From Acidobacteria bacterium UBA7540 (GTDB lineage: Bacteria; Acidobacteriota; Terriglobia; UBA7540), in assembly GCA_002478145.1 (NCBI GenBank), contig DLMI01000251.1, positions 1 through 27,790 on the forward strand: DNA of 27,790 nucleotides. The letters run 5' to 3'. Below the pieces are notes generated by a model that did no database searches, was not told where the DNA came from, and saw only the letters and a program-made list of their open reading frames with translations. Both the position numbers and the translations under genes were made by a program. Positions 8,866 through 27,790 of the stretch are shown here, one piece after another; the first letter of the stretch is position 1; every line of letters starts with the position of its first letter.

Positions 8866-8906
8866 AAGCTCCCTTTCCGCCTGAGAATTTCTCTTGAGTG
8901 CTCCTA

Positions 8907-11900
8907 TCACATATTCCCCAGTTTGTGGAAATGCTTCAGCGTGGCCTCTAGGCACAGGCCGTAGTCCCAACCTTCGTGAAAAGTCTCAAAGATGTGACGG
9001 AGTTGATTTTCGCTCAAGCCATAGAGGTGAGCAACAACCGCGTCAAGCTCGTGGATCATGTCCTCTTTCTCATCTTCTTCCAGGCGGCCACACTCGACGC
9101 CCACAGCCTTCGCCCATTGCCGGTAGCGGTTATCGTGCGCCGCCAGCCGACCCGCCAAAGCCACAACTCTTTGCCAGAGGGCATTGTCTCGGCTCGGTCG
9201 AGGCACTGGAAACGCATTCATGATGTGAATGTCCATGTTGATCTCAACGTAGCGACGAGCATACCAATCAAGGGGAATCGAGCTTAGAACCCCCAGAAGG
9301 TAAGCCTGATCCGCGTCATCACCTCTTATCTGAAGTAAATACGGGGCGGCGTGGCTTACAAAAACCTTCGGAGGCAAGAGAACAGTGCGCACCGTTCGTG
9401 TATCAGTCGAGCGTGTCACCTGCCGATAAGCGATGCGCGGCTTGAGACAAGACAAGGTCTCGGGGTCGCGAATCCAGGCGGGCGGGAACTCACTGAAGGG
9501 CGAACGTTCCAACTTGGAGCTTCGCAGGCGCTTCTTCTGAAGTGCCGCCATTACCTTCGTGGGATCGGCCCAGGCGTAATACAAACCTGTATCCGGCTTC
9601 CAGATGTCAAACGACTCGCCTTTGAAAATGGGCCAGTATCCCTCCGGGCGATCATCGGCAAACTTCATGAGCTTCTTGTCATTCGTTGCGTGAAGTTCAG
9701 CATAGGGGCGAACACGCCACTCTCCTACCTCGTTCCGGTCAAGTCGAGGCGACTTCCGCAACTGCAGAAAGACCTCCCCTGATTGCTCGGTCGGAAGTAA
9801 AGGGAGGGCTGCCGTGTCGGTCCAGGACAACACATCCTTCACTGGAAACCGCAACGGCTCTTTCACTTTTCCTTTGGCGTATCTTTCTTCACTTGGGTAC
9901 GGGCCGCGCAAGGGCAACGCCTCGTCTTCCTGCGGGGCGCTTTTGTTGAGGCTCGTCAATGTGATCGTAAACTGTGGATGCACGTCCTCAAAGACCCAGC
10001 CCTTGTTGTTGAGAAGTTGAGTCAGGTCTTCCTCGCGCCCTTTTTCTAGAACAGCAAGACGGAAGTCCTGGCTCCCCTTCGCGGCCCACGCGGAGCGCGG
10101 CAGAACCACGCCAATCCTTCCCCCTTTTCCATGTACCAGATTCCAGAACCTCCAACAGAACGCCTTGTAAACATCTGGGTCGCCAGTGCCCATGCCGGGG
10201 AACGGACCGCTCACGAGTATACGGCGTAGCAAATCGGATTGTTCTGTCTCTCGCTCATAGACTTCAGCCAAATCCGGCCTCTGAGTTCGGAGCCGTCTTG
10301 TGGTTGTTTCGCGCTCCCTTTGAGATAGAGAATGAAATCCGGGGTAATGGCGCGTCCAGAAGCGATTCTCTTCCACCTTCTCTTTTTCCCACGGTGGGTT
10401 GCCCATGATTACATCAAACCCCGATTGCTCCCGTAGGAAGACCTCGGGAAAGGAAACAGGAAAGTGGAAGGGAGGAATAGCCTTGAGCGATTCGAGCGCC
10501 AACCTGCGTGCCTTTGAACCCAAAACGGATTCAGGGGCTTCCATCCAATGTGAAGCATTCTGAAAAACATCTCCGTGGACTTCATCGGAGATTCGGGCTG
10601 CTGCCAGTACATCGAACAGCGCTGCCGCTGGTGCTGTTGCCTCCCGCGCCTCGCGGAACGCTTGACGCGCCCGCTCAATCTCAGCGGCACTCGCATCCGA
10701 TAGCCGGGCTAGGCGGTCAAGGGCAACCTTGGCGCTTCCCAATAACCGCTCTTCGGATACTGCGTAGAGTGTACCGACAATCTCCCGTAGCCAATCGCTT
10801 GCCTCTTGAATGGTGGCAATGCCAACCAACGAGTTTCCCACCACGAGACTGTGGTCAAGGAAGGAAAGGGGCAGTCCAGGGACAAACGTATGAACCCAAA
10901 GGGAGAGCCGGGCCAATTCAACGGCAATCGGGTTTAAGTCCACGCCATAGATGCAACGGCGTGCAATCTGCCGCCGCAGCAGTTGGGTGTCTTCTATAGG
11001 GTCGATTTCTTCGGCCTGGGGTCCAAGCGCTTCACGGGCAGCTTGCCGGAGGCGTGCCAATTCCTCAAAGACGTCCGGCAAGTGGCGTCTGGCGAGGTAG
11101 CCCGAGAAGGCACGTTCGATGTGATCAACAGCAGCGGTCAGGAAGTGGCCGGATCCCATCGCAATGTCAGCCACTCGGAAGTCAAAGAAAGCGTCGGCGG
11201 CAGCCCGATCATCCATAGTATCGAGCCGGGCGAAGTGATCTCTCAACGCTGGTTCAAGCGCGTATTCAAGCAAATGCTCCACGGCAAAGTGTTTGGTGAA
11301 ATAGGAACCAGTCGCCTTTCGTGCTCCAGACGTATTGTGCAGGTACGGTCGCCCCTTGGGGACCACCACCTCTTCCTTCGGCTTGGCCGGACGGTATTGG
11401 TCCTGTTTCTCGACCTTCTCGGTAGTGAGGTCAACCTCGGCAATCGACAGCTCGTTCTCAAGCAGTCCCTCGTAAACCGTCCCAAACTCCCTGACTCCCA
11501 GGCTGCGGAAATCTACGGGTCCCCAACCTTCCGGGGTGTTATCCACCAGGAGTGACTGGAGGACAGGGCCAAAGGCATAATCTGGGACCTTTATTGAGGC
11601 AAGCGCTGCTCCGGTTGGGGAAACTGCTGAGTCTCGCGAGAACAAGCCGCCGTTGTAAGCGGGTACGCCCCACTCCGCATTGCCTTTGTCTACGGCCCGG
11701 AAGAGGCGATCCACCTCCTCCCAGTGAGTCGTGTCATGGCCGAAGGGAGTCTTCGAGTTGAGAATTTCAATCAACTCACGCGCCTTTTGTTTCAAGGAGC
11801 GGGCCTTGTAAAGGTCATTCGTCTTGTATGGGAGTAATTCCTTGTCCTCAGCATAGGCGACAAAGAGCAGGCGGAAAAGAGCAACTAGCGCCATCTGATA

Positions 11901-12944
11901 AGTTTCCGCCAGTTTCTCTGCCGAAGGTGATTTAAGATTGCGTGCCTCCAGAATCGCCTGAGCCAAGCGGGGAACAACGTCTGTGTACACGCGCTCCCGC
12001 AATCTATTTCCAAGATCGACCGCATATCGCGCAGATGAGTCCAGAATCTCCTCAATCGTGCCGCCCCTGCGGAGCGCATCGGCTGAGAATAGGAGCCAAA
12101 GGTATCCCGCCTGTTCGTTGGAAACAAGGTCAAGGTGAATCTCAACGAAGGTTTCGGTGCGGCCCCGCCGACCTACGCCCACACCAGCACGGACCGGATA
12201 GAGCCGGATGGTGGATCCAGTCGAGACCACAACATAATTCAGGTTTTCGGCATCGGCCTTGGCGAGGGCGTAGGAGACTGCGGAGAGATTAGAGAAGCGG
12301 GTATTCGGTATCTCCGGGGATTCGTTCCTTTCCAAAAAGACGGCCAGGGCCACTCTTGTCTCAGCCGCCCGCAAAATGTAGGAGGGGCCAGGGAGTGGTT
12401 CCAAGGTGAAGCCAAGCCCTTGAATAAGGGGTTGGCCTCGAAGTCTGAGGCAGTCCTGGCCTTTGTGCGCGGCCTCCGCCCAATCCGCCCTTTGGGGGAC
12501 ACCCGATTGAAGCTCATGAGTGGCGAAAAGTCCCTCGTTCCTGATCCCTGAAAGCGGCGTCTCAACTTCTGGTATCGCTGAGTGGAGGAAGCGTAAGGCT
12601 GAATGCCGATCCGGTTCCTCAAGCGCCGCGCTGCAAATCCGCTCGACCCTGCTTGGGTCCAGCCCGACAAACGCGGGTGGATGGTCTCCAATGGGGCCGC
12701 AAAGCGCAGCCTTACAGTCATAGAGGACGACCAGGAGCAGTGGCGTTGCCCGCCCACCAAGCCGCGCCTTCCAAACGGTGCGTAATGTCGTAGCGGTAGG
12801 GGCTTCGGCGCTCGCCGCAATTGCGACCTCCAGGGCGTTCGGCCCATTGCCCAGGGCAAGTCCGACCGCTCGCAGTTCGTGCGGTTCAGGGAGCACTAGT
12901 GGCCGTAGTTCGCGCTCTGACAAAAAGGTGAGAGAAGAAGCCAA
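8907..12944 (-). CDS. Eco57I/PglX-type N6-adenine DNA methyltransferase
   Basis: The start is TTG 12944, preceded by GAAGGAGG at an ideal distance, giving 1345 aa. Residues ~1-530 form a large N-terminal region without a visible PD-(D/E)XK motif. Methylase motifs follow in gamma-class order: motif X-like ATGSYFTKHFAVEHLL (~540-555), motif I-like ADIAMGSGHFL (~591-601, in place of DPACGSG), IYGVDLNPIAVELARLSLW, and the catalytic NPPW (~848-851). The C-terminal third (VRPYAELHATNDKKLMKF to the end) has the look of a target-recognition and helical-spacer region, including a DWYARRYVEINMDIHIMNAFPVP block typical of type IIG and BREX PglX enzymes. The likely role is adenine methylation of host DNA for self/non-self discrimination. 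It sits between a PD-(D/E)XK nuclease gene and the receiver/helicase pair. Confidence 0.93.
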   Translation of the reverse strand: MASSLTFLSERELRPLVLPEPHELRAVGLALGNGPNALEVAIAASAEAPTATTLRTVWKARLGGRATPLLLVVLYDCKAALCGPIGDHPPAFVGLDPSRVERICSAALEEPDRHSALRFLHSAIPEVETPLSGIRNEGLFATHELQSGVPQRADWAEAAHKGQDCLRLRGQPLIQGLGFTLEPLPGPSYILRAAETRVALAVFLERNESPEIPNTRFSNLSAVSYALAKADAENLNYVVVSTGSTIRLYPVRAGVGVGRRGRTETFVEIHLDLVSNEQAGYLWLLFSADALRRGGTIEEILDSSARYAVDLGNRLRERVYTDVVPRLAQAILEARNLKSPSAEKLAETYQMALVALFRLLFVAYAEDKELLPYKTNDLYKARSLKQKARELIEILNSKTPFGHDTTHWEEVDRLFRAVDKGNAEWGVPAYNGGLFSRDSAVSPTGAALASIKVPDYAFGPVLQSLLVDNTPEGWGPVDFRSLGVREFGTVYEGLLENELSIAEVDLTTEKVEKQDQYRPAKPKEEVVVPKGRPYLHNTSGARKATGSYFTKHFAVEHLLEYALEPALRDHFARLDTMDDRAAADAFFDFRVADIAMGSGHFLTAAVDHIERAFSGYLARRHLPDVFEELARLRQAAREALGPQAEEIDPIEDTQLLRRQIARRCIYGVDLNPIAVELARLSLWVHTFVPGLPLSFLDHSLVVGNSLVGIATIQEASDWLREIVGTLYAVSEERLLGSAKVALDRLARLSDASAAEIERARQAFREAREATAPAAALFDVLAAARISDEVHGDVFQNASHWMEAPESVLGSKARRLALESLKAIPPFHFPVSFPEVFLREQSGFDVIMGNPPWEKEKVEENRFWTRHYPGFHSLSQRERETTTRRLRTQRPDLAEVYERETEQSDLLRRILVSGPFPGMGTGDPDVYKAFCWRFWNLVHGKGGRIGVVLPRSAWAAKGSQDFRLAVLEKGREEDLTQLLNNKGWVFEDVHPQFTITLTSLNKSAPQEDEALPLRGPYPSEERYAKGKVKEPLRFPVKDVLSWTDTAALPLLPTEQSGEVFLQLRKSPRLDRNEVGEWRVRPYAELHATNDKKLMKFADDRPEGYWPIFKGESFDIWKPDTGLYYAWADPTKVMAALQKKRLRSSKLERSPFSEFPPAWIRDPETLSCLKPRIAYRQVTRSTDTRTVRTVLLPPKVFVSHAAPYLLQIRGDDADQAYLLGVLSSIPLDWYARRYVEINMDIHIMNAFPVPRPSRDNALWQRVVALAGRLAAHDNRYRQWAKAVGVECGRLEEDEKEDMIHELDAVVAHLYGLSENQLRHIFETFHEGWDYGLCLEATLKHFHKLGNM

Positions 12945-13090
12945 GCTTCCTCCTTCAGGAGTTTGCGAAAACGGGAAGAGGATAACTCACCCAGCACCCA
13001 GTTACAAGTCGGACACGGCCACCGTCAGCAAGTTCAGTCCACAACATACGAAAACTAGGGGGATGGAGGAAAAGCCGTGTCCAGTTCTAT

Positions 13091-14200
13091 TCAGGAGAAG
13101 AGTGTTGGCTGAGAGGGTGGCCCGGATTCTGGTGGGACTTCCTTGCTTGTGCCTAATCTGCCCCGACACAGGTACGTGGCAAGGCTTCGAGCAAAGTCGC
13201 TTGGGCGAGATTGTGGTCCTGCTAAATGGCCCGGCTCCCCCAACTCCCTAGTAATGTTACGATAACCAACAACGTAGCGGTCGTTTTCAATCTTCCGAGC
13301 CAGTCCAGAGAGAGTCAAGGCATCAAGTGAATCCCGGCACCAGTCCAACCAATGGCCCCACCGCAGAGGATACCTTCCTTCAATCTCAGCAGCTAACTGC
13401 GACACCGTCACGTCCAGTGGCATTTCCTTTTGCGCATTCCGTCGCCTCCACTCCTCGCGTTGCGCCTGAGTCAACAGGAAGTAGAAGACCTTTGTCCAAA
13501 GAAAGACCAGTGTAAATATTGTTGGGGGGGCGTCGTTGCAGAACTGCCAAGTGGCCTTGATAGCCTGGATTTTCTCGGGCGTAACCTTCAAAGAGGCTGC
13601 GCGGCGCGAAAAACAAGTGCTCAGCTTCAGTTCCTCTCTAACGGAAGCGTCACGAAAATCGCTCGACTGGCCCGAGACCTTGCGGAAAACGAACTCGTTT
13701 CGGTCATGATCGTAATACCACTCGAAGACGACAAGCGATCTCTCGAATTGGATCAGTCCGCCCCGCAAAATCTCCCCAAGGCGGGTCACTATCTCCTGAG
13801 CGTCACGAAGGGGAATAAGCAATAGAATGTCGTGGGTCGTTGGGGCCAACCGCTCACCCTTCGGCCCGGCTTTGAATTCCAACGGTCTATCGTACTTCTT
13901 TAGTTTTCGCAGATGCCCCAGGAAGCTCTTTTGCTCAATCGGAAAACCAGCTTTGGTTTCGCCTATGAGACCATACGATGGTGAAATCAGGACCCCGAAG
14001 TCAGGGGTCTTCTCCGTTCCGCCCTCTTCGGACGAACTTAACCGGGGGAAGCGGTCGAACTGGCATATGCTGGATGAAAACGGCTTGACCTGAGTGAAGA
14101 AAAATTCCCAGCATGACACGAGGTCAACGGCTGTATCGTATGCTCTGAATTCTCGGTGGAGCTGCTCGACGCATTGATCAAACGTAGGCGATTCAGGCAC
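13091..14200 (-). CDS. PD-(D/E)XK restriction-like nuclease
   Basis: The 369-aa product starts at GTG 14200, only 7 bp after the stop of the preceding gene, so translational coupling is likely; no strong Shine-Dalgarno is present. Residues 64-83 carry a canonical nuclease motif: PD at 66-67, a strand and turn, then E-T-K at 81-83 within GLIGETKAGFP. The remainder is mixed helix and strand, with a winged-helix-like C-terminal part (TVSQLAAEIEGRYPLRWGHW, then DALTLSGLARKI). The C-terminus ends SQPTLFS, which resembles a sliding-clamp-binding QxxLF motif. It is the best candidate for the DNA-cleaving subunit paired with the downstream adenine methylase. Function is inferred from motif and context. 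Confidence 0.82.
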   Translation of the reverse strand: MPESPTFDQCVEQLHREFRAYDTAVDLVSCWEFFFTQVKPFSSSICQFDRFPRLSSSEEGGTEKTPDFGVLISPSYGLIGETKAGFPIEQKSFLGHLRKLKKYDRPLEFKAGPKGERLAPTTHDILLLIPLRDAQEIVTRLGEILRGGLIQFERSLVVFEWYYDHDRNEFVFRKVSGQSSDFRDASVREELKLSTCFSRRAASLKVTPEKIQAIKATWQFCNDAPPTIFTLVFLWTKVFYFLLTQAQREEWRRRNAQKEMPLDVTVSQLAAEIEGRYPLRWGHWLDWCRDSLDALTLSGLARKIENDRYVVGYRNITRELGEPGHLAGPQSRPSDFARSLATYLCRGRLGTSKEVPPESGPPSQPTLFS

Positions 14201-14207
14201 GGGGGTA

Positions 14208-15266
14208 CTAGGTCAAGACATCTTCCACAGTCCATGATCTCGGTTCGGGTTTTACGATCTCGCCCTCGCGAAAGTTCTCAAAGATGTGATTGCACAAGCG
14301 ATTTAAGGAAAACGCGGATGCGTCTACCTGCGGGATCACGGTCACTGCATTCGGCGTCGTCGCGAAAATATCGAATGCTGACCCATCAAAGAAATCGATG
14401 AGTGAAACATGTACATACGGGTTTTCATGCAGCACCGCGATTCCACTGCGCGTCATCAGGTCGAGCGCAGACAGGAAGGTCAGGTTGTCATCCCGATCTT
14501 CAAACACCGTCTCACCGAATTCGATGTTGATCGGAGAGACAGGCGCGTCACCGGATTTCCGCGAGGACTGCTCAAAAACCCGATGCTTTCTGGACGCGGT
14601 GTCTACGATTGGAGTAAGGACATTGTTGAGAAAAACGCGTAGGTCGCCTGATAGGAATTTCGCCACGCCGGTGCGTGCCACAAACGCATGTAGTGAGCCC
14701 CGGCCCGTCACTACAAAGTCGACTTTATCGACAAACATCCCTTCGTTCTCAGCGCCATTGAAGACCGCATGGTATGGCTGTTTCTTGAAACTTATCTCCC
14801 CTTCGCGCCTGTAAGAATACGCCACAGCCTTGTTTACAGAAACCTCAGCAGCCTGGTTCTCTTCGATGTTTTCGAGAATTAGCCGGATATCCCTTGAAGA
14901 TAGGTACGCGCCCGAAAAACGCGGCGAGAGGGAGTTTAGCAACCTCAAGAGGAGATTTTCGCTCGCAACGGTCCGCGCAAGTGAAAAGGCGGTCCACGCC
15001 TTTTCTCCACTCTTGAACACGCCGAATTGCATCCCCTCAGAGTCGGGCCTTCTGCTCAGGGTTCCCAACCAGTAGTCTTGTCGTTTTGAAAGCCTCACCA
15101 ATGATCGGTCCCCCTCTAGAACCGATGGCGCAGGCGCATCCGAAAGGAAGGAAGCAAAAAAGAGCTTGACTCCCCTATGCCCAACGCAAACGCGTGCGGC
15201 TAGCTCAAGCGCATCAAGCCACCGCTCACCAAACTCGTAGCCTTCAAATCGGAGTTGCCTGGGCAT
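14208..15266 (-). CDS. hypothetical 352-aa protein, first gene of the cluster
   Basis: ATG 15266 has no recognisable Shine-Dalgarno (GGTTGGTTTCTG precedes it), so it may be translated from a leaderless or weak-site transcript. The sequence looks like a mixed alpha/beta soluble protein. I see no nuclease, ATPase, helicase or DNA-binding motif. A conserved-looking core is ENEGMFVDKVDFVVTGRGSL, and near the C-terminus HVSLIDFFDGSAFDIFATTP. The stop lies 7 bp before the PD-(D/E)XK nuclease start, so the two are almost certainly co-transcribed. A sensor, specificity or nuclease-partner role is plausible by position only. I do not recognise the family. Confidence 0.72.
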   Translation of the reverse strand: MPRQLRFEGYEFGERWLDALELAARVCVGHRGVKLFFASFLSDAPAPSVLEGDRSLVRLSKRQDYWLGTLSRRPDSEGMQFGVFKSGEKAWTAFSLARTVASENLLLRLLNSLSPRFSGAYLSSRDIRLILENIEENQAAEVSVNKAVAYSYRREGEISFKKQPYHAVFNGAENEGMFVDKVDFVVTGRGSLHAFVARTGVAKFLSGDLRVFLNNVLTPIVDTASRKHRVFEQSSRKSGDAPVSPINIEFGETVFEDRDDNLTFLSALDLMTRSGIAVLHENPYVHVSLIDFFDGSAFDIFATTPNAVTVIPQVDASAFSLNRLCNHIFENFREGEIVKPEPRSWTVEDVLT

Positions 15267-15725
15267 CAGAAACCAACCAATACTATGCTACCACTGTTCT
15301 AGGATGCGCAATATACCATATGAACGCAAAACTGGCTAGAAGTGCCCACGATTTGTGCCCACGATTGCGCCGGTTTATGGTGGTTCACGGTGCGTGACAG
15401 CTAAACCGCAAGAGCACTCATTTCTTAGACTGCCAGTCATGAGGTCAGGGGTCGGGGTCGGCTTGGGGCTACAGAAGACCTGATGTAGGCCAGTCTGCCC
15501 AATAACATCTGATTCCGGGCAGCTCAAAATGCGCAAACCGACCCCAAAGGATCAAACACTTGGGGCGAGTCGAAGGGCAGGGCTTTTGGGCAAGCGAATC
15601 ACAGCAGGCATTATACACCCGTGTCAGACAAATGTGCGGGCCGCTGCCGATGACTTGGCCTGTCTTGCGCGCGCCATAATGCACCTCCGGTGGAGCAAGG
15701 GACGCGTCTGGCACCCGCAACCGCA
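15267..15725. other. 459-bp intergenic region upstream of the methylase/helicase cluster
   Basis: This gap separates the Rad50-like gene from the five-gene cluster. It holds the tandem 13-bp repeat at 15342-15367 and an A/T-rich stretch (around 15295-15325, including TATATT on the minus strand) that could contain the cluster promoter, though I cannot match a clean -35/-10 pair. The minus-strand frame at 15469-15726 has poor composition and I do not call it a gene. Confidence 0.45.
15342..15367. repeat. tandem 13-bp direct repeat, candidate operator
   Basis: Two adjacent copies, GTGCCCACGATTT and GTGCCCACGATTG, differ only in the last base. They lie about 75-100 bp upstream of the first gene of the methylase/helicase cluster, next to an A/T-rich stretch that may be its promoter. 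Tandem repeats in this position often bind a regulator; that role is an inference. Confidence 0.5.
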
Positions 15726-17918
15726 TTACGTGATTCCGCTGTTGGTAATTAAGGGAGGTAAGGCCGAAGGGGGTTCAGAAACAGTCCCTTCCAGATTTCC
15801 GATAACGGCATGTCCGTCGCCAACTGTTAGAATCTGGTCGGCCAACTCCCAGACCAGTGGCGTATGGCAGATAAAAATGACTTGGTGGAACCCACCAAGG
15901 TCCATAGCCCGGCGCAGCATGCGCACGTACTCCCTGCCATTGGCAGCATCCAGAGCACCCACGGTTTCGTCCCGGAACAGCGTTTCGTAACAAATGCCTT
16001 CGCCCTGCCGCATGTTGTAGATGGCGATGCCTAGGTTCACGGCTTCGTTAACCAGCACAAACTGTCCCCCTGAAAGCTCATCCACGAGGCACGTACGGTC
16101 AAGGTTCTTGTTGCGGACCTCGACATCAAAATCGTCTACCATCCCCTTGCCGTCGGCCTTGGGGCGTTGCGTCCTGAATCGGATTTCGAACTTGTTGTCG
16201 AAGCACCCCTCAAGCAGAGAATTTACCAAGATCGAAACTTGTGGTCCGGCAGCCTGGATCTCGCAGAGCTGGATCTCGTCCGGCCCGAACACCCTGGCAA
16301 GATATGAATAATCTTCCTGTTCACTTCTCGCCGCCCCAAGTTCGGCCTCAACCTGGGCCAGTCGGGTCCTTGCAGCTTCCACCTGCTCCTGGCGCTGTTT
16401 GATTTGTGCTTGGCGGGCAATAACGCTGTCACGTTCACGCCGGCAGGAGACTATCAGACGGTCCGTATCTTCAACCTCTCGCCGCGAAGCCTGCATCTTC
16501 CTGTCGAGATCAGCGAATGCGGAGAGTGCTGATTCTTTCCCCGCCAGTTCCTCGGTTAGCTCCGCCCGGGCCTGATTGAGTCGGTCCAGGCCCTTCAGCC
16601 GTTCCTCCCGGCGTGCCTCAACAGCCCGCAATTCCTCGTAACCCTGCCGCTCCTGATCAACTTTCCTGCGGTCGCGCTCGCAGCCTTCGAGTGTCCGGGT
16701 GAGCTCAAAGGATGGAGTGACAATCTGAAGGAGCGAACTGCGTTGGACCTCGACTTCAATTGAGAGTGTCGCAACCTCTCCCTCTAGCGTCGGAATCTTC
16801 TGGCCGGCTTTGACCGCGCGTCGAATCTTCGGACAGGACGCGTAAGGACCTTCGCCCCGGCAGGGCACAACCGCGAGCTCTTCACGCTCCACCCGCAGAC
16901 GTTCAAGTTCGGCCAGGTTGGCTTTTAGCTCAGCATCCAGAGATTGGACCGTACGTTCGGTGTCACGGTTCGACGCCTCCAGACCCTGTATCTCCCTGAT
17001 CTGCCGATGGAGTTCTTCAACGCGCGTAGCGAGTGTCGCGCCTCGTTCCGTCAAATCGGCGAGGTCCTTCTTTCCCGTCAGAAGGCTTTCATCCCTTCCT
17101 ATCTGGCGTTTGGTTTCTGTGATCTCAGCATCAGTCTTGCGCAGGCGCTGTTTCAGTGCCTCAACCTCAGCCACGAGCGGCTTCCGACTGGCCTCCACTG
17201 CCTGAAGCTCCAGCAGCCGTTGTTGTGCGACGCGCTTCTCGCCTTCCAGGGTCTCGAGACGGGATGACACTTCCGCAAGCCGGGTCTCAACTTCCGCAGG
17301 ATCTTCAACTCCGGCCTCCACCAGCTCCTTCAGGCTTCTCGCCTGCCCTTCAAGACCCAGCGTAGTCCTGGCCACTTCCTCGCCTTTCTCTTTGGCCTCG
17401 GCCGCAATCAGTCTCAGCCGGTCCAGCCCGAGCAGCTCTCGGATGAACAGCTCCTTCCGCTCGCTCCTTTCAAGTGAGAGAAAGTTACCCGTGCGCTTCT
17501 GGCTGGAGAAGATGCTGCTGAGGAAGAAGTCGGGCGTGCCAGCGCATTTACGGACAAGCTCCTCAAAGGGCTCCTTTTTGCCGTTGGTCAGCGGCGCGCC
17601 TTCACTGTTGAAGAGATAGCTCTCCATCTGGCGGGACTTGGGATCGATTTTGAGGAGAGACCGGTAGCGAGTGCCATTAACACTGAAAGTGAGGTCGATT
17701 TCCGGCTGGGGATGGGTGGCGAAGTCATAGAGTGAACGCTTCTGCCCTGGCAGTAGGCGAAACAGAGCCGCGAAGACCGATCCGATCAGCGTGGACTTGC
17801 CGGCACCGTTCTCGCCCACAAGGGCGATTAGCCCCTCACCCAGAGTGTCGAAGTCAACGCACACTTCATTTGGAAATGCCTCAGTAATTCCCCGCAAGCG
17901 GAGCGTACTCAGTCTCAT
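15726..17918 (-). CDS. Rad50/SbcC-like ATPase
   Basis: I place the start at ATG 17918, preceded by GGGAGG, rather than at the frame's upstream limit, which would overlap the preceding nuclease gene. The 730-aa product has an ABC-type ATPase split by a coiled coil. The N-terminal lobe has Walker A GENGAGKST (residues 35-43). A long heptad-rich segment (about 180-560) contains a cysteine pair (PCRGEGPYASCPK) where Rad50 has its zinc hook. The C-terminal lobe has the ABC signature ELSGGQ (~612-619), Walker B and D-loop FRDETVGALD (~648) and an H-loop His (ICHT). At 730 aa it is short for SbcC (about 1000), more like phage gp46-type proteins. It pairs with the upstream Mre11-like nuclease for processing DNA ends. 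Confidence 0.92.
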   Translation of the reverse strand: MRLSTLRLRGITEAFPNEVCVDFDTLGEGLIALVGENGAGKSTLIGSVFAALFRLLPGQKRSLYDFATHPQPEIDLTFSVNGTRYRSLLKIDPKSRQMESYLFNSEGAPLTNGKKEPFEELVRKCAGTPDFFLSSIFSSQKRTGNFLSLERSERKELFIRELLGLDRLRLIAAEAKEKGEEVARTTLGLEGQARSLKELVEAGVEDPAEVETRLAEVSSRLETLEGEKRVAQQRLLELQAVEASRKPLVAEVEALKQRLRKTDAEITETKRQIGRDESLLTGKKDLADLTERGATLATRVEELHRQIREIQGLEASNRDTERTVQSLDAELKANLAELERLRVEREELAVVPCRGEGPYASCPKIRRAVKAGQKIPTLEGEVATLSIEVEVQRSSLLQIVTPSFELTRTLEGCERDRRKVDQERQGYEELRAVEARREERLKGLDRLNQARAELTEELAGKESALSAFADLDRKMQASRREVEDTDRLIVSCRRERDSVIARQAQIKQRQEQVEAARTRLAQVEAELGAARSEQEDYSYLARVFGPDEIQLCEIQAAGPQVSILVNSLLEGCFDNKFEIRFRTQRPKADGKGMVDDFDVEVRNKNLDRTCLVDELSGGQFVLVNEAVNLGIAIYNMRQGEGICYETLFRDETVGALDAANGREYVRMLRRAMDLGGFHQVIFICHTPLVWELADQILTVGDGHAVIGNLEGTVSEPPSALPPLITNSGIT

Positions 17919-17988
17919 GGTTTTTTTGTCCTCCCAGGGGTGGTCAGCGTTACGGCGCGTTATATAAGGATAGGGATGATCAGCTTTC

Positions 17989-19131
17989 TTAAGCGGAGAG
18001 AACTGCTTTTTCAACTTCCGCCAGCTTGGTGAGCAACCGTTCCTGGCGGTCGGCTGGTGGTGAGCCTTTCATCGTCCAGTAGGCACGAAGCTTCTCCTCG
18101 GCCGAACGGGCGGCGGCGATAGGAGCAGGCTCTGCCGGAAGCTCCGCATCGTGCTCGATCTTCACCTTCAGTTCGGTGGGATTGGCAGCCAGCAATTTCT
18201 CCTTGAGATTGTCCTGTTGCTCGCGGCTGAGCACGTGATCAGGTCCATTAGGGACCGTCACCACAACTTTCACCCGAGAGTCTTTCAAGGTGAGTGGATC
18301 CAAGTTGTCAGGTAGCCGCAACTCGCCATTTTCGTAGACGGCGCGAAGCTCGACCATCCGGCGAGTGGGCGACACCCTGAATTCGATATCCAGGTCCGAC
18401 AGGTCCGGGCGGAGCTCGGGAGCATTCAGTGTCACCAGGTGGTAGCCTTTGTCTTCGACCTCGCTGTAATCGCAACGGGAAAGAGATCCTGCATACCAAA
18501 CGCGCGGGGCGAGCTCTTGACGGAGGTGAATGTGGCTGAGCCCGACATACTGGGCCTTCAAGCTGCGTAGCGGATCAAGGGGATATTCGGCACAGCGCCC
18601 AACCAGGGGTTGGCCACTGCTCACCCTGGCGCCGGCCACCCCGAAATGCCCAAAGAAGAGCTTGTAGCATCCAGGCCGCTGCTCAAAGCGCCGGTTGAAC
18701 TCATCGAGTTGCCGGGCGAAGGCCTTACCCAGACTGTCCTCGTTGCCAGCCATTTCAGCTTTCCGGGGATACGGGAACACGGCGACAGAAGCCTCCCCCA
18801 GATCAATAAACTCCGGCTCAGTGCAGAGATAGATGGGGTGGGCGGCCTTGGCGCGTGCCAGAACGTGTAAGTCTCCATCGAGTTCCTTGCCGTGGTTACC
18901 CGCCACCAGGATGACCGGGGCGTGATTGCCCATCTGAATGAGCGCTTCGACCCAGAGGTTTCGCTCTTTGATGGTTTGCTTGTAGGTCGTCAGATCACCA
19001 TCGACAACGAAGAGGTTTGTATTGGCGTGGATTGAGTCCTCGACGAACCATTCGAGACACTGTGCAGTGTCCCCGAAGTATCGGTCTTCCTCGACGTGTA
19101 TATCGCCGCAGTGGGAGATCTTCATCCTCAT
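17989..19131 (-). CDS. Mre11/SbcD-like metallophosphoesterase nuclease
   Basis: The 380-aa product carries all five phosphoesterase motifs: D-x-H at residues 10-12 (CGDIH), GD at 45-46 (VVDGD), GNH at 78-80, then GH within FFGHFG, and the H-x-H motif in GLSHIH. This is the two-metal active site of Mre11/SbcD enzymes, which cut DNA ends with Rad50/SbcC. Two ATG codons, 19131 and 19125, share the upstream AAGGAG site; either could be used. The C-terminal ~130 residues form the usual capping and partner-binding region. The Rad50-like gene follows 70 bp downstream. Transcription runs toward the methylase/helicase cluster, but a 459-bp gap suggests an independent unit. Confidence 0.92.
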   Translation of the reverse strand: MRMKISHCGDIHVEEDRYFGDTAQCLEWFVEDSIHANTNLFVVDGDLTTYKQTIKERNLWVEALIQMGNHAPVILVAGNHGKELDGDLHVLARAKAAHPIYLCTEPEFIDLGEASVAVFPYPRKAEMAGNEDSLGKAFARQLDEFNRRFEQRPGCYKLFFGHFGVAGARVSSGQPLVGRCAEYPLDPLRSLKAQYVGLSHIHLRQELAPRVWYAGSLSRCDYSEVEDKGYHLVTLNAPELRPDLSDLDIEFRVSPTRRMVELRAVYENGELRLPDNLDPLTLKDSRVKVVVTVPNGPDHVLSREQQDNLKEKLLAANPTELKVKIEHDAELPAEPAPIAAARSAEEKLRAYWTMKGSPPADRQERLLTKLAEVEKAVLSA

Positions 19132-22410: not shown

Positions 22411-22668
22411 TCAATCCTGGAATAGTCCTAGCTGATCCGAAAGTGGGGTGACTCGCGCGGACCTGGGCAAGGCCTTGCGCCGCTGTCCCGCCTCATGCGA
22501 CATACCGAACATCAGGAGTTGCGTCACTACTGCCGGGATTGGTGCTACGGGTGGAATGATGACTTCCGGCAGATCCGGAACCGGATGTTCAGCATCGATT
22601 TCCGGCTCGCGGGTCTCCACCGGCCGCACTCCGAACACTTCCGCTTGCTTCCCCGCGAGCCGTTTCCA
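22411..22668 (-). pseudogene. C-terminal fragment of the split SNF2-like helicase gene
   Basis: This 85-codon minus-strand stretch begins WKRLAGKQAEVFGVRPVE and ends LSDQLGLFQD with TGA at 22411-22413. The codon frame joins directly to the helicase fragment at 26211-27790, which stops matching at AVWK: both junctions carry TGG AAR. The intervening DNA is the RIT element. The original C-terminal tail is Pro-, Val- and Glu-rich and ends QLGLF, close to a bacterial sliding-clamp-binding motif. With no start of its own the fragment is probably not translated. Confidence 0.8.
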
Positions 22669-22811
22669 TTATTCCGGGTCGAGGACTATGCCGAGCGTGG
22701 AGCCGACACTTCAGCCTGTTCCCACCGGCACACCAATTCGTTCTGCCTTCCAATTGGTGCTTTTTGAGCGATCGCCCGAATTCATCGCCGAGGACTCGGC
22801 ATAGTCTTCGG
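22664..22811 (+). repeat. left inverted repeat of the RIT element, with coding-like tail
   Basis: This repeat matches the reverse complement of 26051-26188 at about three quarters of positions. It contains GACTATGCCGAG at 22684-22695 and its reverse complement at 22795-22806, likely recombinase-binding motifs. Read inward it encodes FHYSGSRTMPSVEPTLQPVP, then TGTPIRSAFQLVLFE and ten more residues to a TAG at 22802-22804. This is the same tail encoded at the right end. Here the frame is antisense to the helicase fragment, so it is not fused to a gene in this copy. Confidence 0.8.
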
Positions 22812-22867
22812 GTTGGGTCAGCCTAGCCAAACGTATACAATCTCTGATTCCTATCCACCGCTTTCGG

Positions 22868-23866
22868 CTATAGTGCCTTAAGGAAAGCCAAAAGTTGGTC
22901 ATCGGGCTGATAACGGCCAGGCTTTCCATTGTGCGGAGTGGTTTTCGCCAAGACTCCCTCCTTCAGCGCCATGTTGGCATCAAGATACATCTGCGTTGTC
23001 TCGACGGACTCATGCCCCAACCAAAGGGCGATAAGCGCTCGATCCACACCGGCTTGCAACAACTCCATGGCCATCGTGTGCCGGAGAACGTGTGGCGTGA
23101 CCCGCTTCCGGTGCAGGGAGGGGCACACCCCACGGGCAGCAGCGGTGTGCTTGGCGAAAATGTACTGAACGCCATCTGCACTTAGACGACTGCCTCGCGC
23201 GTTCGGAAACACAATCTCCGTGCCAGATCTAGCTGGCTCCCGCTGCCAAGCCCGCAAGACTGCGACTGTCTGTTTTGCGAGTGGCGTACAGCGTTCCTTG
23301 CGCCCCTTGCCTATGACCCGGATATGGGCTCCAATTCCCAGGCTCACGTCCGGCCAGCGCATGGTCGTCAGTTCAGACAGCCGCAATCCAGTTTGGAGAG
23401 CGACTAAGAGCAACGCGTGATCGCGGCGTCCATACCAACTGCTCTGGTCGGGTGCGGCAAGCAACGCATCGGCTTCCGACCGAGTAAGGAAATGAACAAG
23501 CGCCTTAGTAAAGCGCTTGTCAGGAATGGCCAGAACACGTTGGATCTGCGCGGCGTGGGTCGGAGCCTCGAAGGATACGTAACGAAAGAAAGAACGAATA
23601 GCCGTCAGCCTCAGATTTCGGCTGCGGGCAGTAATACCACGGCCTTTCTCCAAGTCATCCAAGAATGCCGTGACCAAGGGCGCGTCGATATCTTCGAGAA
23701 CCAACGCCGAGGGCTGCCTATGTAATCGCTTTTCAGTGAACTTCAGGAGCAGGCGGAAAGTGTCGCGGTAGGAACTGATCGTGTGGGGACTGACCTGTCG
23801 TTGCTGGATCAGTCGCCGAGTGAAGAAGCTTTGAAGCAAAAAGGGGAAGTCCGCAGTGGGATTCAT
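22868..23866 (-). CDS. RIT tyrosine recombinase, third gene
   Basis: ATG 23866 overlaps the TGA of the preceding recombinase (ATGA) and has GGGGAG 5 bases upstream, fixing the start and giving 332 aa. It is a XerC/D-type recombinase. The N-terminal SAM-like core-binding domain (PFLLQSFFTRRLIQQRQVSP, then HTISSYRDTFRLLLKF) precedes a catalytic domain with Arg in TGLRLSELTTMRW (~161), HVLRH (~258-262), the GH of WLGHESVETTQ, and the nucleophile Tyr in QMYLD (~293). All six catalytic positions appear intact. As in other RIT elements it is the smallest-overlap third member, translationally coupled to the second. Confidence 0.93.
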   Translation of the reverse strand: MNPTADFPFLLQSFFTRRLIQQRQVSPHTISSYRDTFRLLLKFTEKRLHRQPSALVLEDIDAPLVTAFLDDLEKGRGITARSRNLRLTAIRSFFRYVSFEAPTHAAQIQRVLAIPDKRFTKALVHFLTRSEADALLAAPDQSSWYGRRDHALLLVALQTGLRLSELTTMRWPDVSLGIGAHIRVIGKGRKERCTPLAKQTVAVLRAWQREPARSGTEIVFPNARGSRLSADGVQYIFAKHTAAARGVCPSLHRKRVTPHVLRHTMAMELLQAGVDRALIALWLGHESVETTQMYLDANMALKEGVLAKTTPHNGKPGRYQPDDQLLAFLKAL

Positions 23867-24792
23867 GGCTTCTCCCCCCAACGCCGCTCAAGGCGTTTGA
23901 CTGCCAACCCCATCAGTTCAGGGTTGGCGGTGAGATACCAATAAGTGCTGGTGATGCAAACGTGCCCCAGAAACGTAGACAGTAGAGGCAGACGCGGCTC
24001 TATCTCCAAGCCTGAGCGGTACCAGCGCAACAGCGTGTGCACGGCGAAGCGATGGCGGAAGTCGTGAGGCCGCGGTCCACCTTTTGCTGAGGGATGGCGC
24101 AACCCGATCTGAACCGATAAGCTATTAAAGATTCTGTAGATCTCGGACTGTAATATCGGAGTACCACGCCCAGAAATGAAGAAATGAGCAACGGGGCGTC
24201 CGGCCAAATAGCTTTCACGCCTCTTTTGGTAATCGCGCAGCACTTTTTGTGTGCTTGGGTGAAGCGGCACGAGGCGGGACTTGCCGAACTTGGTTCCACG
24301 GATGACCAAAACTCCGTTGATCAAATCTACGTCTTCACACTTCAACCGTATTGCCTCACCGCTGCGGAGGCCCGCGACGGCCAGAAGTCCAAGCAGGCAG
24401 TAATACGTCTTGGCGTTGAAGTGATTTCTGAACTTTCGTTTTATCACCGCATCCAGCAGTCGTTGGATTTCGTCCTCCGTGTAAATGTAAGGCCGGGCTC
24501 GGTGTCGGAGACGCGGAAGCAGTGTAGAAGGTGGAATTTCGGTTCGTGAGTCGGTTGCACTTCGATATTTCGCAAAGCCACGCACCATCCTCAGCCGTTG
24601 CCACTGCCATCCTGAAGTCGATACTGTCTGCTGTGCCCATTCCAGTCCCAGTCGAGTGGTAATGTAGGGGGCATTCTGTTGCTCCAAGAATGTGACGAAT
24701 TTCAAAAGGCACTTCCCATCCTTCTGCAGCTTGAATCCCAGGCCGCGTCTCATGCTCAGATAGTCTTGAAGTGCCACGCGTAAACTATTCAT
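23863..24792 (-). CDS. RIT tyrosine recombinase, second gene
   Basis: ATG 24792 overlaps the end of the first recombinase by 8 bp (ATGAATAG) and has GGGAGG upstream; the longer frame to 25002 is rejected because it lies inside the first gene. The 309-aa product has an N-terminal binding domain (MNSLRVALQDYLSMRRGLGF) and a catalytic domain with Arg in GLRSGEAIRLK (~142), HDFRH (~242-246), LGH of STFLGHVCITST, and Tyr in TSTYWYLT. It is an apparently intact tyrosine recombinase, middle member of the trio, likely made in fixed ratio with its neighbours through stop/start overlaps. Confidence 0.93.
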   Translation of the reverse strand: MNSLRVALQDYLSMRRGLGFKLQKDGKCLLKFVTFLEQQNAPYITTRLGLEWAQQTVSTSGWQWQRLRMVRGFAKYRSATDSRTEIPPSTLLPRLRHRARPYIYTEDEIQRLLDAVIKRKFRNHFNAKTYYCLLGLLAVAGLRSGEAIRLKCEDVDLINGVLVIRGTKFGKSRLVPLHPSTQKVLRDYQKRRESYLAGRPVAHFFISGRGTPILQSEIYRIFNSLSVQIGLRHPSAKGGPRPHDFRHRFAVHTLLRWYRSGLEIEPRLPLLSTFLGHVCITSTYWYLTANPELMGLAVKRLERRWGEKP

Positions 24793-26011
24793 GGGCACCT
24801 CCCGGCCAGGGGAGGGCCAAAGGTCGTAGAGCAGTGAGGTCCACCTTGGCATAGATGGCAGTGGTTCGAGGACTTCTGTGACGCAACAATTCCCCAATCT
24901 CCGCCAGTGAAGCACCGTGCTCCAGCATCTGAATTGCCAGCGTGTGCCGAAACTGATGTGCTCCCTTATGAGGTGATTGGATCCCCGCCCGAGCGAGAGC
25001 ATGCTTAACGATCAAACTCACTGCCCGGTGGTCGCTGAAACCAACAGCCGGGGCAGGACCACGCAAGAACACGAGTCGGCTGGAAGCACGCGGTCGTCCG
25101 TCCCGCAGATAGGCGGCGATCGCTTCGCCCACATCAGAAGGCAGTGGCAATTCAGACCAGCGGTTGGGTTTGCCGCGTACTCTGACTCGACCCGCTTCCC
25201 AATCTATATCGTCCAAGGTTAATGAGGCGATCTCGCCGGCTCTGAGCCCAAGGCGGGCGAGCAGTAACAGAATCGCGTAATCTCGCCGGCCGATCGCCGT
25301 CTTCCGATTGCAGTAGCTCAAGACGAGCTCCACTTGTTTCGGAGGGAGTGCCCTCGGAATCGAGGACATTGACCAATTGGCGACGGTGGGAACAACGGCT
25401 GATAGGTCGGTGGTGATCTCACCCAGATACCGCAAGTACAGCAGGAATGCCCTCAACGCGGTTGTCATCATCTTCGCCCGTTTTGGCTGAAGGGCGGCCT
25501 GCTTCCGAACGAAGTTGACTACATCGTCTGGGCGAAGCTGTGAGAGAGCGAGCCGTCCATCACCGAAACGCTGGACCAGAAAGCGCCTGGTGAAACCTCG
25601 GTAATACTCTATCGTTCCAGGCGCCAGCCCGCGTTCTTGCTGCAAGTACAAAGTAAACTTGTCCTCCAACTGCTTCGCTGGAGTGTTCACAATTGGCGCT
25701 AGAGTCTCTCTGATTGTGCCCTTCTGTCGGAGCCAAGCCAGAAGGCGGTTCAGGTGAGTGGCATCGCCATGCTTTACTTCCTCGTGGAGTTCCAAGTAGC
25801 GCGCCACAAGTTCCGATGTAATCCCCTGCAAGTCTATTCTGCGGTGCTGGAGCCATCTACCGAACTGAGCAATTCGTCGGAGCAGTACGCGCCCAGTGAC
25901 CCTCGAATAGTTGAGATCGCAGAGTTGCTGCGCGAACAGATCGATATACTCTTTCAATGGACCCGACCGCATTCGATGCATGGCTTTGGGGTCCGTGAAA
26001 AATCGTTCCAT
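24785..26011 (-). CDS. RIT tyrosine recombinase, first gene
   Basis: ATG 26011 has a perfect AAAGGAGGTG site, so it is preferred to an in-frame start at 26041. The 408-aa product has a long N-terminal region before the core-binding domain (PAKQLEDKFTLYLQQERGLA, then PGTIEYYRGFTRRFLV). The catalytic domain has Arg in LGLRAGEIASL (~256), HQFRH (~352-356), RHRSPRTT in the second His position, and Tyr in AIYAKVD (~386). All key residues are present. It heads the recombinase operon. A hairpin overlapping its ribosome site may limit its translation. Confidence 0.93.
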   Translation of the reverse strand: MERFFTDPKAMHRMRSGPLKEYIDLFAQQLCDLNYSRVTGRVLLRRIAQFGRWLQHRRIDLQGITSELVARYLELHEEVKHGDATHLNRLLAWLRQKGTIRETLAPIVNTPAKQLEDKFTLYLQQERGLAPGTIEYYRGFTRRFLVQRFGDGRLALSQLRPDDVVNFVRKQAALQPKRAKMMTTALRAFLLYLRYLGEITTDLSAVVPTVANWSMSSIPRALPPKQVELVLSYCNRKTAIGRRDYAILLLLARLGLRAGEIASLTLDDIDWEAGRVRVRGKPNRWSELPLPSDVGEAIAAYLRDGRPRASSRLVFLRGPAPAVGFSDHRAVSLIVKHALARAGIQSPHKGAHQFRHTLAIQMLEHGASLAEIGELLRHRSPRTTAIYAKVDLTALRPLALPWPGGAHE

Positions 26012-26013
26012 AA

Positions 26014-26039
26014 GACACCTCCTTTCACCAGAAGGTGTC
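26014..26039 (-). promoter_or_regulatory. hairpin overlapping the ribosome site of the first recombinase
   Basis: GACACCT (26014-26020) and AGGTGTC (26033-26039) can pair as a 7-bp stem with a 12-base loop. On the mRNA the 3' arm includes most of AGGAGGTGTC, the Shine-Dalgarno region of the recombinase that starts at 26011. Folding would hide the site and lower translation. The pairing is seen in the sequence; the regulatory effect is inferred. Confidence 0.45.
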
Positions 26040-26050
26040 ACGAAACAAAT

Positions 26051-26188
26051 CCGAAGACTATGCCGAGTTCTGAAAGGCGCTCACTCAAAGAGTACAAGCT
26101 GATGGGCAGAACGAATGGGTGGGACGGCGGGAATAGGACAGAGGGTTGGCTCCTCACTCGGCATAGTCTGCGACCCGGAATAGTGGAA
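26051..26188 (-). repeat. right inverted repeat of the RIT element, fused to the helicase frame
   Basis: Reverse complement of this segment matches 22664-22811. It contains GACTATGCCGAG at 26056-26067 and the reverse complement at 26157-26168. Positions 26188-26081 form 35 sense codons (FHYSGSQTMPSEEPTLCPIP, then AVPPIRSAHQLVLFE) and a TGA, directly in frame with the interrupted helicase. Compared with the left copy over these codons, I count differences at 7 first, 5 second and 12 third positions, with 10 of 18 changed codons synonymous. Confidence 0.8.
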
Positions 26189-27790
26189 GCTATTACGAGA
26201 ACGGAATAGCTTCCAAACGGCGTCGGCTGATTCGCCAATCCCTTTCTCGGTTACCAGCTCACGTGCCATCGCCATCAAGATGTCATCGCCTTCGTCGATC
26301 GCTTGAAGACCGTCGCTTGCGAATTTCCCTTCCATCGCCAGCGAAACCAGGAGCTTTTTCCCCATCAACCGCAAACACGCTTCCTGCATGGTACCGGTGT
26401 AGTAAAAGAATTTGACATTGACGTTCGAGTGCTGTCCGATCCTCCATGAGCGCCGGCATGCCTGCCGCAACGTGTAAATGGAATAGCCGGTCTCGTAGAA
26501 GAAAATGTCAGGGAAGGACCAGAGGTCTAGCCCAGTCTGAACCAAACGTGGGTGCCCAATGACGACCTGCACTCCGGCTCGCAATTGACGCTCATACCAC
26601 GCTTCACGCTCTTCCGGCGACACCTGTGTCGTCAGCACCGCTACGTGGATTCCTTCTTTCGCCAGGATGCTCTCCAGCCGGCGTGTCACGTCCCGTTTCT
26701 GGGTATAGACCGCGTAGATCTGCACCTTCCTGCCGCGCTCAAGCGAGGTTTTCACTTCCTCCACCAGCCGCCGCTCCTTGGCGTAGACAAGGTTCTGATC
26801 CAGGTCGCGAGTGGCTGCTATCAGGAATGGTTCGCGACGCTGGGTTTCAGGATTGAATTCCCGCCCGACCAACTCCCCAAAGCCGAAGGGCCGGTCAGGG
26901 TACGCGAGAAGAGCATTCAAGGCCACGCTGATCACCGACTGGTTGCCTCGATGCTCGCGGAGTGCCTTCTTGATGTCCTCTTCCAGATCCTCGTACGCTT
27001 TCTTCAGCGGCTGATCCATCTCAATGCTGACGACCTCCTCCCGGTAAGGAGGGAGAGCGTCAGAGATGTCTTCCAGCGACACGAAAGCGCCAAGGCTCAT
27101 GAGGAAGCGGCCGAACAGCAGCGGTGATGCTCCGGGCCGGTGGCGGGACCGGGTTGTAACCCGAGCTTCAGAACAGGCATTGTCGGCCGGCTCGATTACC
27201 GTGATCTTCTCCAGCAGACCGTAGGATTCGGTGAAGGCCCGAACGCCAGCCTCCCCGTGCTCGAAGCCCTCTTCCAGCATCCTGGAGGGTTCGAGACGAA
27301 ACAGGATGTTGAACAAGTCCAGGGCGTAACCGCCCAGCAGGGTGCCGGTGAGCACGGCGATGTGGCGGGCGCACGAGGCCAGCGTCCCAAGTGCGTTGCC
27401 CTGTGCCGTGTCTCCTCCCTTCAACTCGTGCACCTCATCGGCAATGGCATAGTCAAAGAAGTTATCCATGTAGCGACCGATAAAATCGACGGGTGCAAAG
27501 CGTCGGATCTTCTTGCCATCCGCCTGCCAAAGCGCACTGTAGAGCGGCCGACGGGCGTGATTGGTTCCCTCGTCTTGACCCAGCACCTCGCTGAGCTTCA
27601 CTCTTTTGAAGTCCATTGCAAGTAGGCGCTCGCCCTCGGTGCCGAGGTAGACCGGAGACCCACTGTCAGGATTGATGACGCTGCCCTGATAACGGCCGCA
27701 GCGGGCAACCTGGTAGGCGTGCCTCCAGAAATACCCGAGCTTGGCGCGGTCTCGACCCACCACGAAGATTGCAGGCGAAGGACAAATCGA
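26081..27790 (-). CDS. SNF2-like helicase, N-terminus off the window, 3' end replaced by RIT tail
   Basis: The frame is open to the window edge, so the N-terminal part (including Walker A) is missing from view; 569 residues are visible. Motifs include the DEVH box in YAIADEVHELKGGD, motif III in AVLTGTLLGGYALD, motif V in VVIGHPRLVQTGLDLW, and the motif VI RQACRRSWRIGQ, all typical of SF2/SNF2 translocases. Native sequence ends at AVWK (26211). Then come LFRSRNS from the junction block and a 35-residue element-encoded tail ending QLVLFE. The replaced native tail is at 22411-22668. The motor motifs are intact, so the fusion may still be functional. Confidence 0.85.
   Translation of the reverse strand, partial: SICPSPAIFVVGRDRAKLGYFWRHAYQVARCGRYQGSVINPDSGSPVYLGTEGERLLAMDFKRVKLSEVLGQDEGTNHARRPLYSALWQADGKKIRRFAPVDFIGRYMDNFFDYAIADEVHELKGGDTAQGNALGTLASCARHIAVLTGTLLGGYALDLFNILFRLEPSRMLEEGFEHGEAGVRAFTESYGLLEKITVIEPADNACSEARVTTRSRHRPGASPLLFGRFLMSLGAFVSLEDISDALPPYREEVVSIEMDQPLKKAYEDLEEDIKKALREHRGNQSVISVALNALLAYPDRPFGFGELVGREFNPETQRREPFLIAATRDLDQNLVYAKERRLVEEVKTSLERGRKVQIYAVYTQKRDVTRRLESILAKEGIHVAVLTTQVSPEEREAWYERQLRAGVQVVIGHPRLVQTGLDLWSFPDIFFYETGYSIYTLRQACRRSWRIGQHSNVNVKFFYYTGTMQEACLRLMGKKLLVSLAMEGKFASDGLQAIDEGDDILMAMARELVTEKGIGESADAVWKLFRSRNSFHYSGSQTMPSEEPTLCPIPAVPPIRSAHQLVLFE
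26189..26210. other. 22-bp palindrome-ended block at the right RIT junction
   Basis: This block begins GCTATT and ends AATAGC, and with flanking GGAA/TTCC gives 10-bp inverted arms around a 10-bp centre. It is absent from the left junction and is not expected from the helicase reading frame. It could be a recombination core or a coupling sequence carried from an earlier site (inference). Confidence 0.5.

Follow-up and report, generated by a model that had tools for sequence, protein, structure and literature searches.

A helicase gene of the SNF2/DEAD type is split at position 26210 of the window (the whole stretch of DNA analysed here, 27,790 nucleotides) by a RIT (recombinase-in-trio) element, and the locus raises the question of what such an insertion does to the protein that its target encodes. 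The first-pass annotation had proposed that the end of the element supplies the interrupted helicase with a replacement C-terminus, and that the encoded peptide is under selection. This proposal is supported by a codon comparison between the two element ends, by the tails that occur at the same codon in two other helicases (P0002 and P0003), and by the conservation of a QLxLF motif in intact homologs. It is likely that a target-specialised RIT subfamily donates a replacement C-terminus to the helicase; judged from the sequences compared here, tail donation belongs to this helicase-targeting subfamily, and not to RIT elements at large.

Architecture and Boundaries of the Element

RIT elements are described in the available text of PMC3414803 as three adjacent, overlapping tyrosine recombinase genes in an element of about 3.5 kb whose ends carry an inverted repeat with an overlapping palindrome, and they are also treated in the available part of PMC10214605. 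The element in the window occupies 22669–26183, with boundaries set by comparison with relatives, and it combines a recombinase trio with short overlaps, terminal inverted repeats, and a palindrome, as is characteristic of RIT elements. The three tyrosine recombinase frames overlap on the minus strand, and all three match PF00589: ritA (24785–26041; E 7.7e-30), which has a 408-aa homolog (P0123) and was translated from its likely start at 26011; ritB (23863–25002; E 1.5e-20), an open frame whose real start is probably nearer 24793; and ritC (22868–23881; E 4.6e-34), with 39 related loci. According to the accessible portion of PMC8138268, RitA proteins contain two sequential CB domains, and RitC proteins have an extra C-terminal helix.

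The element has a right (U) end and a left (D) end, with two terminal inverted repeats, I1 (113 nt, 77%) and I2 (24 nt, 92%). These repeats point to a terminal recombination motif, which is common to relatives and reads CTATTCCGGGTCGCAGACTATGCCGAG at the U end (26157–26183, minus strand). Inner inverted copies of this motif lie at 26056–26067, 121 nt from the U-end terminus, and at 22795–22806, 131 nt from the D-end terminus. Beyond the terminus on the right come an inverse copy of the overlap, 6 nt long, that spans the gap to the palindrome (26184–26189; TGGAAG on the plus strand), an imperfect 20-nt palindrome that reads LFRSRN(S) (26190–26209), and the overlap CTTCCA (26210–26215; TGGAAG on the gene strand, codons W–K). 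The overlap on the left flank is TTTCCA (22663–22668; TGGAAA on the gene strand), identical at five of six positions. Relatives repeat this layout of overlap, palindrome, inverse overlap, element, and overlap, with the palindrome outside one terminus, and in the relatives inspected the interrupted gene has the palindrome on its C-terminal side. This comparison indicates that the palindrome at 26190–26209 is also part of the insert, which then extends over 22669–26209, a size of 3541 nt that fits the roughly 3.5 kb expected of a RIT element.

Fusion of the Helicase to the Element End

The 3′ part of the helicase gene up to the insertion lies at 26210–27790 on the minus strand (PF00271, E 2.3e-6; 3953 homologs), with its 5′ end beyond the window. 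The helicase frame is open from the window edge, over 569 aa, to a stop at 26081–26083, and its product ends in ADAVWK followed by LFRSRNSFHYSGSQTMPSEEPTLCPIPAVPPIRSAHQLVLFE. The codons for W and K are the last native ones, and the following stretch (26081–26209, minus strand) is contributed by the palindrome and the U end up to QLVLFE and the stop, with the QLVLFE codons at 26084–26101 on the minus strand. The frame thus runs through the junction as the first-pass annotation had it. Its count of 35 gained codons was too low; the gain is in frame, but since the palindrome was also inserted, the donated stretch amounts to 42 codons plus a stop after the native lysine. The remainder of the native gene is found past the element at 22662–22411 on the minus strand, where it ends in SDQLGLFQD and a stop, resembles the native tails of homologs, and is the lost tail named in the annotation. 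The matching inward tail reported for the opposite end is also present: read inward on the plus strand, the D end (22667–22804) encodes the same kind of tail, HYSGSRTMPSVEPTLQPVPTGTPIRSAFQLVLFERSPEFIAEDSA-stop, with QLVLFE codons at 22751–22768 followed by 11 further residues. A second sequence, P0122, matches the end of the fused protein without a difference; it lies on a 10,489-base contig, comprises five member sequences, and may represent the same sample assembled again. The window itself looks like a contig of metagenomic origin.

The ritA gene probably starts at 26011, with a good ribosome site upstream (judged by eye). This start lies 69 nt past the donated stop and on the strand of the helicase gene, and the element may therefore profit from helicase transcription as well.

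The Lost C-Terminus and the Putative Clamp-Binding Motif

Both the lost and the donated tails had been noted to resemble the sliding-clamp-binding motif, and published consensus sequences agree with this likeness: C-terminal Q-L-x-L-F is the clamp-binding consensus in the available text of PMC4549789, while the available text of PMC3716654 gives QL[S/D]LF as the consensus and QLGLF as the version used by E. coli Pol II. The motif is conserved in close native homologs, 110 of 118 of which carry Q[LMQ]xLF within the last 10 residues. In a systematic count over 32 distinct helicase ends taken from genomes, 23 had Q[LMQ]xLF; the nine without it include two that are cut by early stops, three that end in QLSLAF, and four others (L153, L199, L089, and L093). 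A QLxLF end is not universal among distant helicase homologs. All three known fused proteins end in C-terminal Q-L-x-L-F (QLVLFE, QLGLFE, and QLVLFE), and because native homologs conserve QLxLF, the fused proteins have regained a conserved feature of the family.

The likeness of the donated tail to the native family is confined to this motif. Native linkers preceding the motif are very different in sequence and length, and the donated linker has no detectable homology to them. That the donated tail is homologous to native ones over its whole length was rejected: an HMM of 102 distinct native tails, obtained from the 118 homologs after a length and motif filter had removed four and 12 duplicates had been set aside, gave only 1.5–3.9 bits, and linker-only shuffles scored equally well or better in 878–1714 of 2000 trials. 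Natural tails with a single terminal motif and a length near the donated 42 residues after WK do exist, with 41 (L088), 42 (L112), and 46 residues (L107, L109, and L110). An internal QLLMF-type motif, present in 113 of the 118 native homologs, is absent from the fused protein. Among the DNA matches listed between the window and the helicases of other genomes, all begin at 26209 or above, often at 26209–26213, and since the matches stop there, the insertion falls at the end of the conserved helicase core.

Possible Coding and DNA-Level Constraint in the Element Ends

The two tails differ at 24 nucleotides over codons 1–34, with 7, 5, and 12 differences at first, second, and third codon positions and 10 of 18 changed codons synonymous, exactly as counted in the first-pass annotation. 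Codons 1–10 belong to the recombination motif and are uninformative on coding, and the filler codons 11–34 were therefore tested alone. They hold 20 differences (6, 4, and 10 at the three codon positions), with dN 0.24, dS 0.78, and dN/dS 0.30, values that describe one pair of sequences over 24 codons, both being ends of a single element. In the other five frames (two forward and three reverse), dN/dS is higher than in the tail frame. Seven amino-acid changes are observed in the filler, compared with a mean of 12.0 when the substitutions are placed at random (P 0.0032), and 16.9% of the randomised filler versions contain a stop codon. The codon bias between the ends supports, short of proof, selection on the encoded peptide.

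A constraint on the DNA itself could also make the two ends alike. If the recombinases bind long inverted ends, the similarity of the peptides would be a by-product and the motif a coincidence, a reading that fits the conservation of the terminal motif and its inner inverted copy in relatives, and that has a concrete example in L002, whose ends are nearly identical (z 15.6; 40 of 43 filler positions) although the frame closes after 4 codons and nothing is encoded. L002 is the exception, however: in 17 of the 18 relatives measured, out of 33 with both ends, the fillers of the two ends resemble each other no better than shuffled sequence does (z ≤2.9), whereas the two ends in the window are alike throughout (z 12.1). 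A DNA-level constraint also does not account for differences that favour third codon positions with fewer amino-acid changes than expected, or for a peptide with QL[V/G]LFE that recurs in P0002 and P0003; when the filler bases were shuffled, an open tail had Q[LM]xLF among its final 12 residues in 30 of 300000 trials for each end. An explanation from DNA constraint is accordingly considered unlikely, and selection on the peptide is the preferred reading of the ends.

The ends in the window also differ in size from those of related elements, which were taken from the 39 loci plus further genomes, with a few doubtful end assignments. From the inner motif to the terminus, they measure 121 and 131 nt, as opposed to 70–78 or 97–100 nt in relatives where the inner motif was found. 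In most of the measured relatives the spacing is nearly fixed, at 77–78 nt at one end and 97–100 nt at the other, suggesting a nucleoprotein geometry from which the element in the window departs.

The tail motif was also considered as a general property of RIT ends, and this was rejected. In a first set of 79 distinct ends, from which seven low-scoring ends had been left out, the motif occurs in the two ends of the window only (0 of the 77 others), and it is found in 0 of 18 ends in a second set, in which a few assignments are doubtful. The expectation that other elements would keep the tail frame thus holds for P0002 and P0003, where the tail is in frame, and fails for the ends of the other subfamilies, which do not encode it.

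Targets and Orientation of Related Elements

Many related elements cut tyrosine recombinase genes at conserved H-x-x-R codons, so that recombinases target recombinase genes, and the listed cases all share one frame (L005, L014, L016, L019, L020, L022, L029, L030, L038, and others). Insertion at the H-x-x-R codons of recombinase genes is not described in the available parts of the RIT literature examined. In a Pfam test of ten selected flanks, all ten match PF00589, with the matches of L016 and L038 falling below the curated cut-off, and in eight the match breaks off where the junction lies, at profile position 133. An N-terminal recombinase half was recognised by eye at 29 of 59 loci, many of the remaining loci having no flank or no clear end. 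The many relatives that lie in tyrosine recombinase genes speak against tail donation as a general trait of these elements.

The N-terminal half of the target joins the D end in 19 loci and the U end in 13 (by eye, with three counted in both), and both insertion orientations therefore occur in related RIT elements. This lends plausibility to the earlier suggestion that either orientation would offer the tail to the target; on the other side, all three fused helicases have U-end-like tails.

Several loci depart from the common arrangement. In L190 a tRNA-Ser gene (1181–1273) has a RIT terminus, at 1272, at its 3′ end, which is a different type of target. L020, L025, and L029 have N-terminal tyrosine recombinase halves at both element ends, a pattern suggesting rearrangement or recombination between elements. 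In L012, L018, and L141, contig ends coincide with element termini, or the same outside sequence is repeated at both ends, and these loci are possibly circular or multi-copy forms.

Recurrence in Other Helicases

Among the best 120 of the 3953 helicase homologs, the element tail follows the same ADAVWK in P0002, where it ends in QLGLFE, and in P0003, where it ends in QLVLFE. A search with the tail alone matched P0122, P0003, and P0002, and no others. The diverged tails differ in about one residue in five (79% identity). The structure that AlphaFold2 predicted for P0002 was too poor to be used, with a mean pLDDT of 44. All three fused tails begin with the palindrome, reading LFR[S/E]RNSF, and all three look U-end derived, with the stop directly after the final E. 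P0002 agrees with the D end in having TG and F, in place of which AV and H stand in the U end.

The fused state does not follow a single line of descent. On a tree built from 122 helicase cores, with the tail left out, it requires three changes, all forced by well-supported branches, and a single clade of fused helicases is rejected (AU p 1.8e-10, on a tree of 36 selected rows). The core of P0003 is 99.4% identical to that of P0065, a native-tailed helicase, which, as far as the sequences go, would indicate a recent arrival by insertion or recombination. With no single fused clade and the near-identity of the P0003 and P0065 cores, the site was reached on no fewer than three occasions, through insertion or recombination; because recombination between helicase copies could carry the element, the three occurrences are not necessarily three transpositions. 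These three are the fused loci known, with tail DNA from one of them.

A lucky or captured tail that arose in a single insertion could have spread between helicase copies by homologous recombination, in which case the element would not be adapted and the tail would be conserved like any other C-terminus. In favour of such a spread, genome G824 holds the helicase gene in two full-length copies, besides four partial matches of which three begin at the first base of a contig (contigs C163, C75, C164, C162, C731, and C165). All three tails, moreover, open with the palindrome and look like the same end. Yet the D end keeps the peptide, and shares residues with P0002, although it is used by no known fused helicase, and the 79% identity of the tails would make the spread old, in conflict with the 99.4% identity of the P0003 and P0065 cores. 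A single captured tail is thus quite unlikely to be the explanation.

The fused helicase might also be a dying gene, with the tail an incidental read-through and the loss of the helicase tolerated by the host. RIT insertions are said to inactivate their targets in the cases of radC and IS66 tnpA (available text of PMC2864759), and relatives of the element cut tyrosine recombinase genes. Decay is contradicted by three open fused frames (746 aa in P0002, 745 aa in P0003, and 569 aa up to the window edge here) and by the 90% identity of both P0002 and P0003 to the protein in the window, and it is regarded as very unlikely.

Wider searches located further relatives of the element and of the helicase. 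Relatives of the RitA protein exist at 83, 76, and 89% (partial) identity. The viral_contigs set gave no ritC or helicase match and three distant ritA loci, and the plasmids gave RIT matches at 60–80% identity only and helicases below 60%. Element DNA matched in 20 of 396 genomes, and the helicase protein in 29 of 396, mostly weakly; searches with element and helicase DNA together matched 50 of 257, 17 of 95, 71 of 399, 8 of 40, and at least 92 of 397 genomes, figures from sets that partly share genomes and in which few candidates were scored per genome. Among the matches listed in these element and helicase DNA searches, none is a helicase match that runs on into an element end.

Proposed Mechanism and Significance

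In the proposed mechanism, the three tyrosine recombinases would insert the element at the conserved ADAVWK codons, where the helicase core yields to the variable linker. Insertion would take away the native linker together with the C-terminal QLxLF motif, and the element end would then be read through in frame, providing about 36 linker residues followed by QL[V/G]LFE and a stop. Most likely, the ends of the element have grown longer and been moulded into coding sequence for a substitute linker with a clamp-docking motif. The helicase would probably keep a putative sliding-clamp docking motif, and with this motif kept, the insertion would probably cost the host little and the element would persist. 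Binding of the donated tail to the clamp (DnaN), retention of helicase function after fusion, and a benefit to the element from the donated tail are putative consequences of this mechanism.

Because the opposite end encodes a matching tail, either orientation, reached by insertion or by inversion, would offer a tail to the helicase, and the D-end tail may be used in this way. In a more far-reaching version, selection has acted on the linker and clamp-docking motif at both ends: the element would mend its one target site in either orientation, giving the helicase a working C-terminus in place of the native one, and its recombination ends would mimic the motif. This version has about an even chance of being correct.

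If the mechanism is correct, DNA that has to work as a recombination end has been shaped, at two places in each element, to encode a functional peptide that belongs to another protein. The element would then lower its own cost by offering a short linear motif, with no need to copy what was lost. Target choice by such elements would become directly testable, and element-supplied C-termini are predicted to pass for ordinary protein variation in metagenomes. The neighbouring genes at 4988–19131 on the minus strand resemble defence or DNA-maintenance genes, and include a PLD-SNF2 helicase, a type IIG restriction-methylation enzyme (PADLOC, 1023.7 bits), and a SbcC/SbcD-like pair.

Comparison with Known Systems

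The element in the window shares with the RIT elements, as far as the available descriptions extend, the recombinase trio, the length of about 3.5 kb, and the terminal inverted repeat with an overlapping palindrome. Published RIT elements sit in, or inactivate, radC, IS66 tnpA, or a transposase gene in these descriptions, whereas the subfamily in the window has longer, coding ends. Coding tails at RIT ends are not mentioned in the available parts of the RIT literature examined (PMC3414803, PMC2864759, PMC10214605, and PMC8138268), and no report of C-terminal motif donation by a mobile element was found in literature that did not cover Ricker et al. 2013, a main RIT survey.

GInts and strand-biased circularizing elements are similar in having several tyrosine recombinases and target-site specificity, and the strand-biased circularizing elements carry a 6-bp flank comparable to the 6-nt overlap found here (available text of PMC10214605 and PMC5385486). 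They differ in that the descriptions class them as genomic islands, with a fourth conserved gene in the case of GInts, and tail donation does not appear in the portions of these descriptions examined. Transposases with a C-terminal QLxLF, such as that of IS1634, likewise join a mobile element to this motif, which has been shown to bind the clamp according to the available text of PMC4549789. In the IS1634 type, the motif belongs to the element's own transposase, while the element in the window adds it to a host protein.

A parallel is provided by the dusA-associated genomic islands and prophages, which, in the available part of PMC4482086, likewise replace the lost end of their target with coding sequence of their own, such that the enzyme may stay functional; they are the only precedent found, within the available texts, for an element that rebuilds its target gene. 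The insertion in the window agrees with them in that the lost end of the target is replaced in frame by element sequence. As far as the available text describes them, the dusA elements replace the 5′ end and supply a structural strand, whereas the element described here encodes a C-terminal linker and a short docking motif, and does so at both of its ends.
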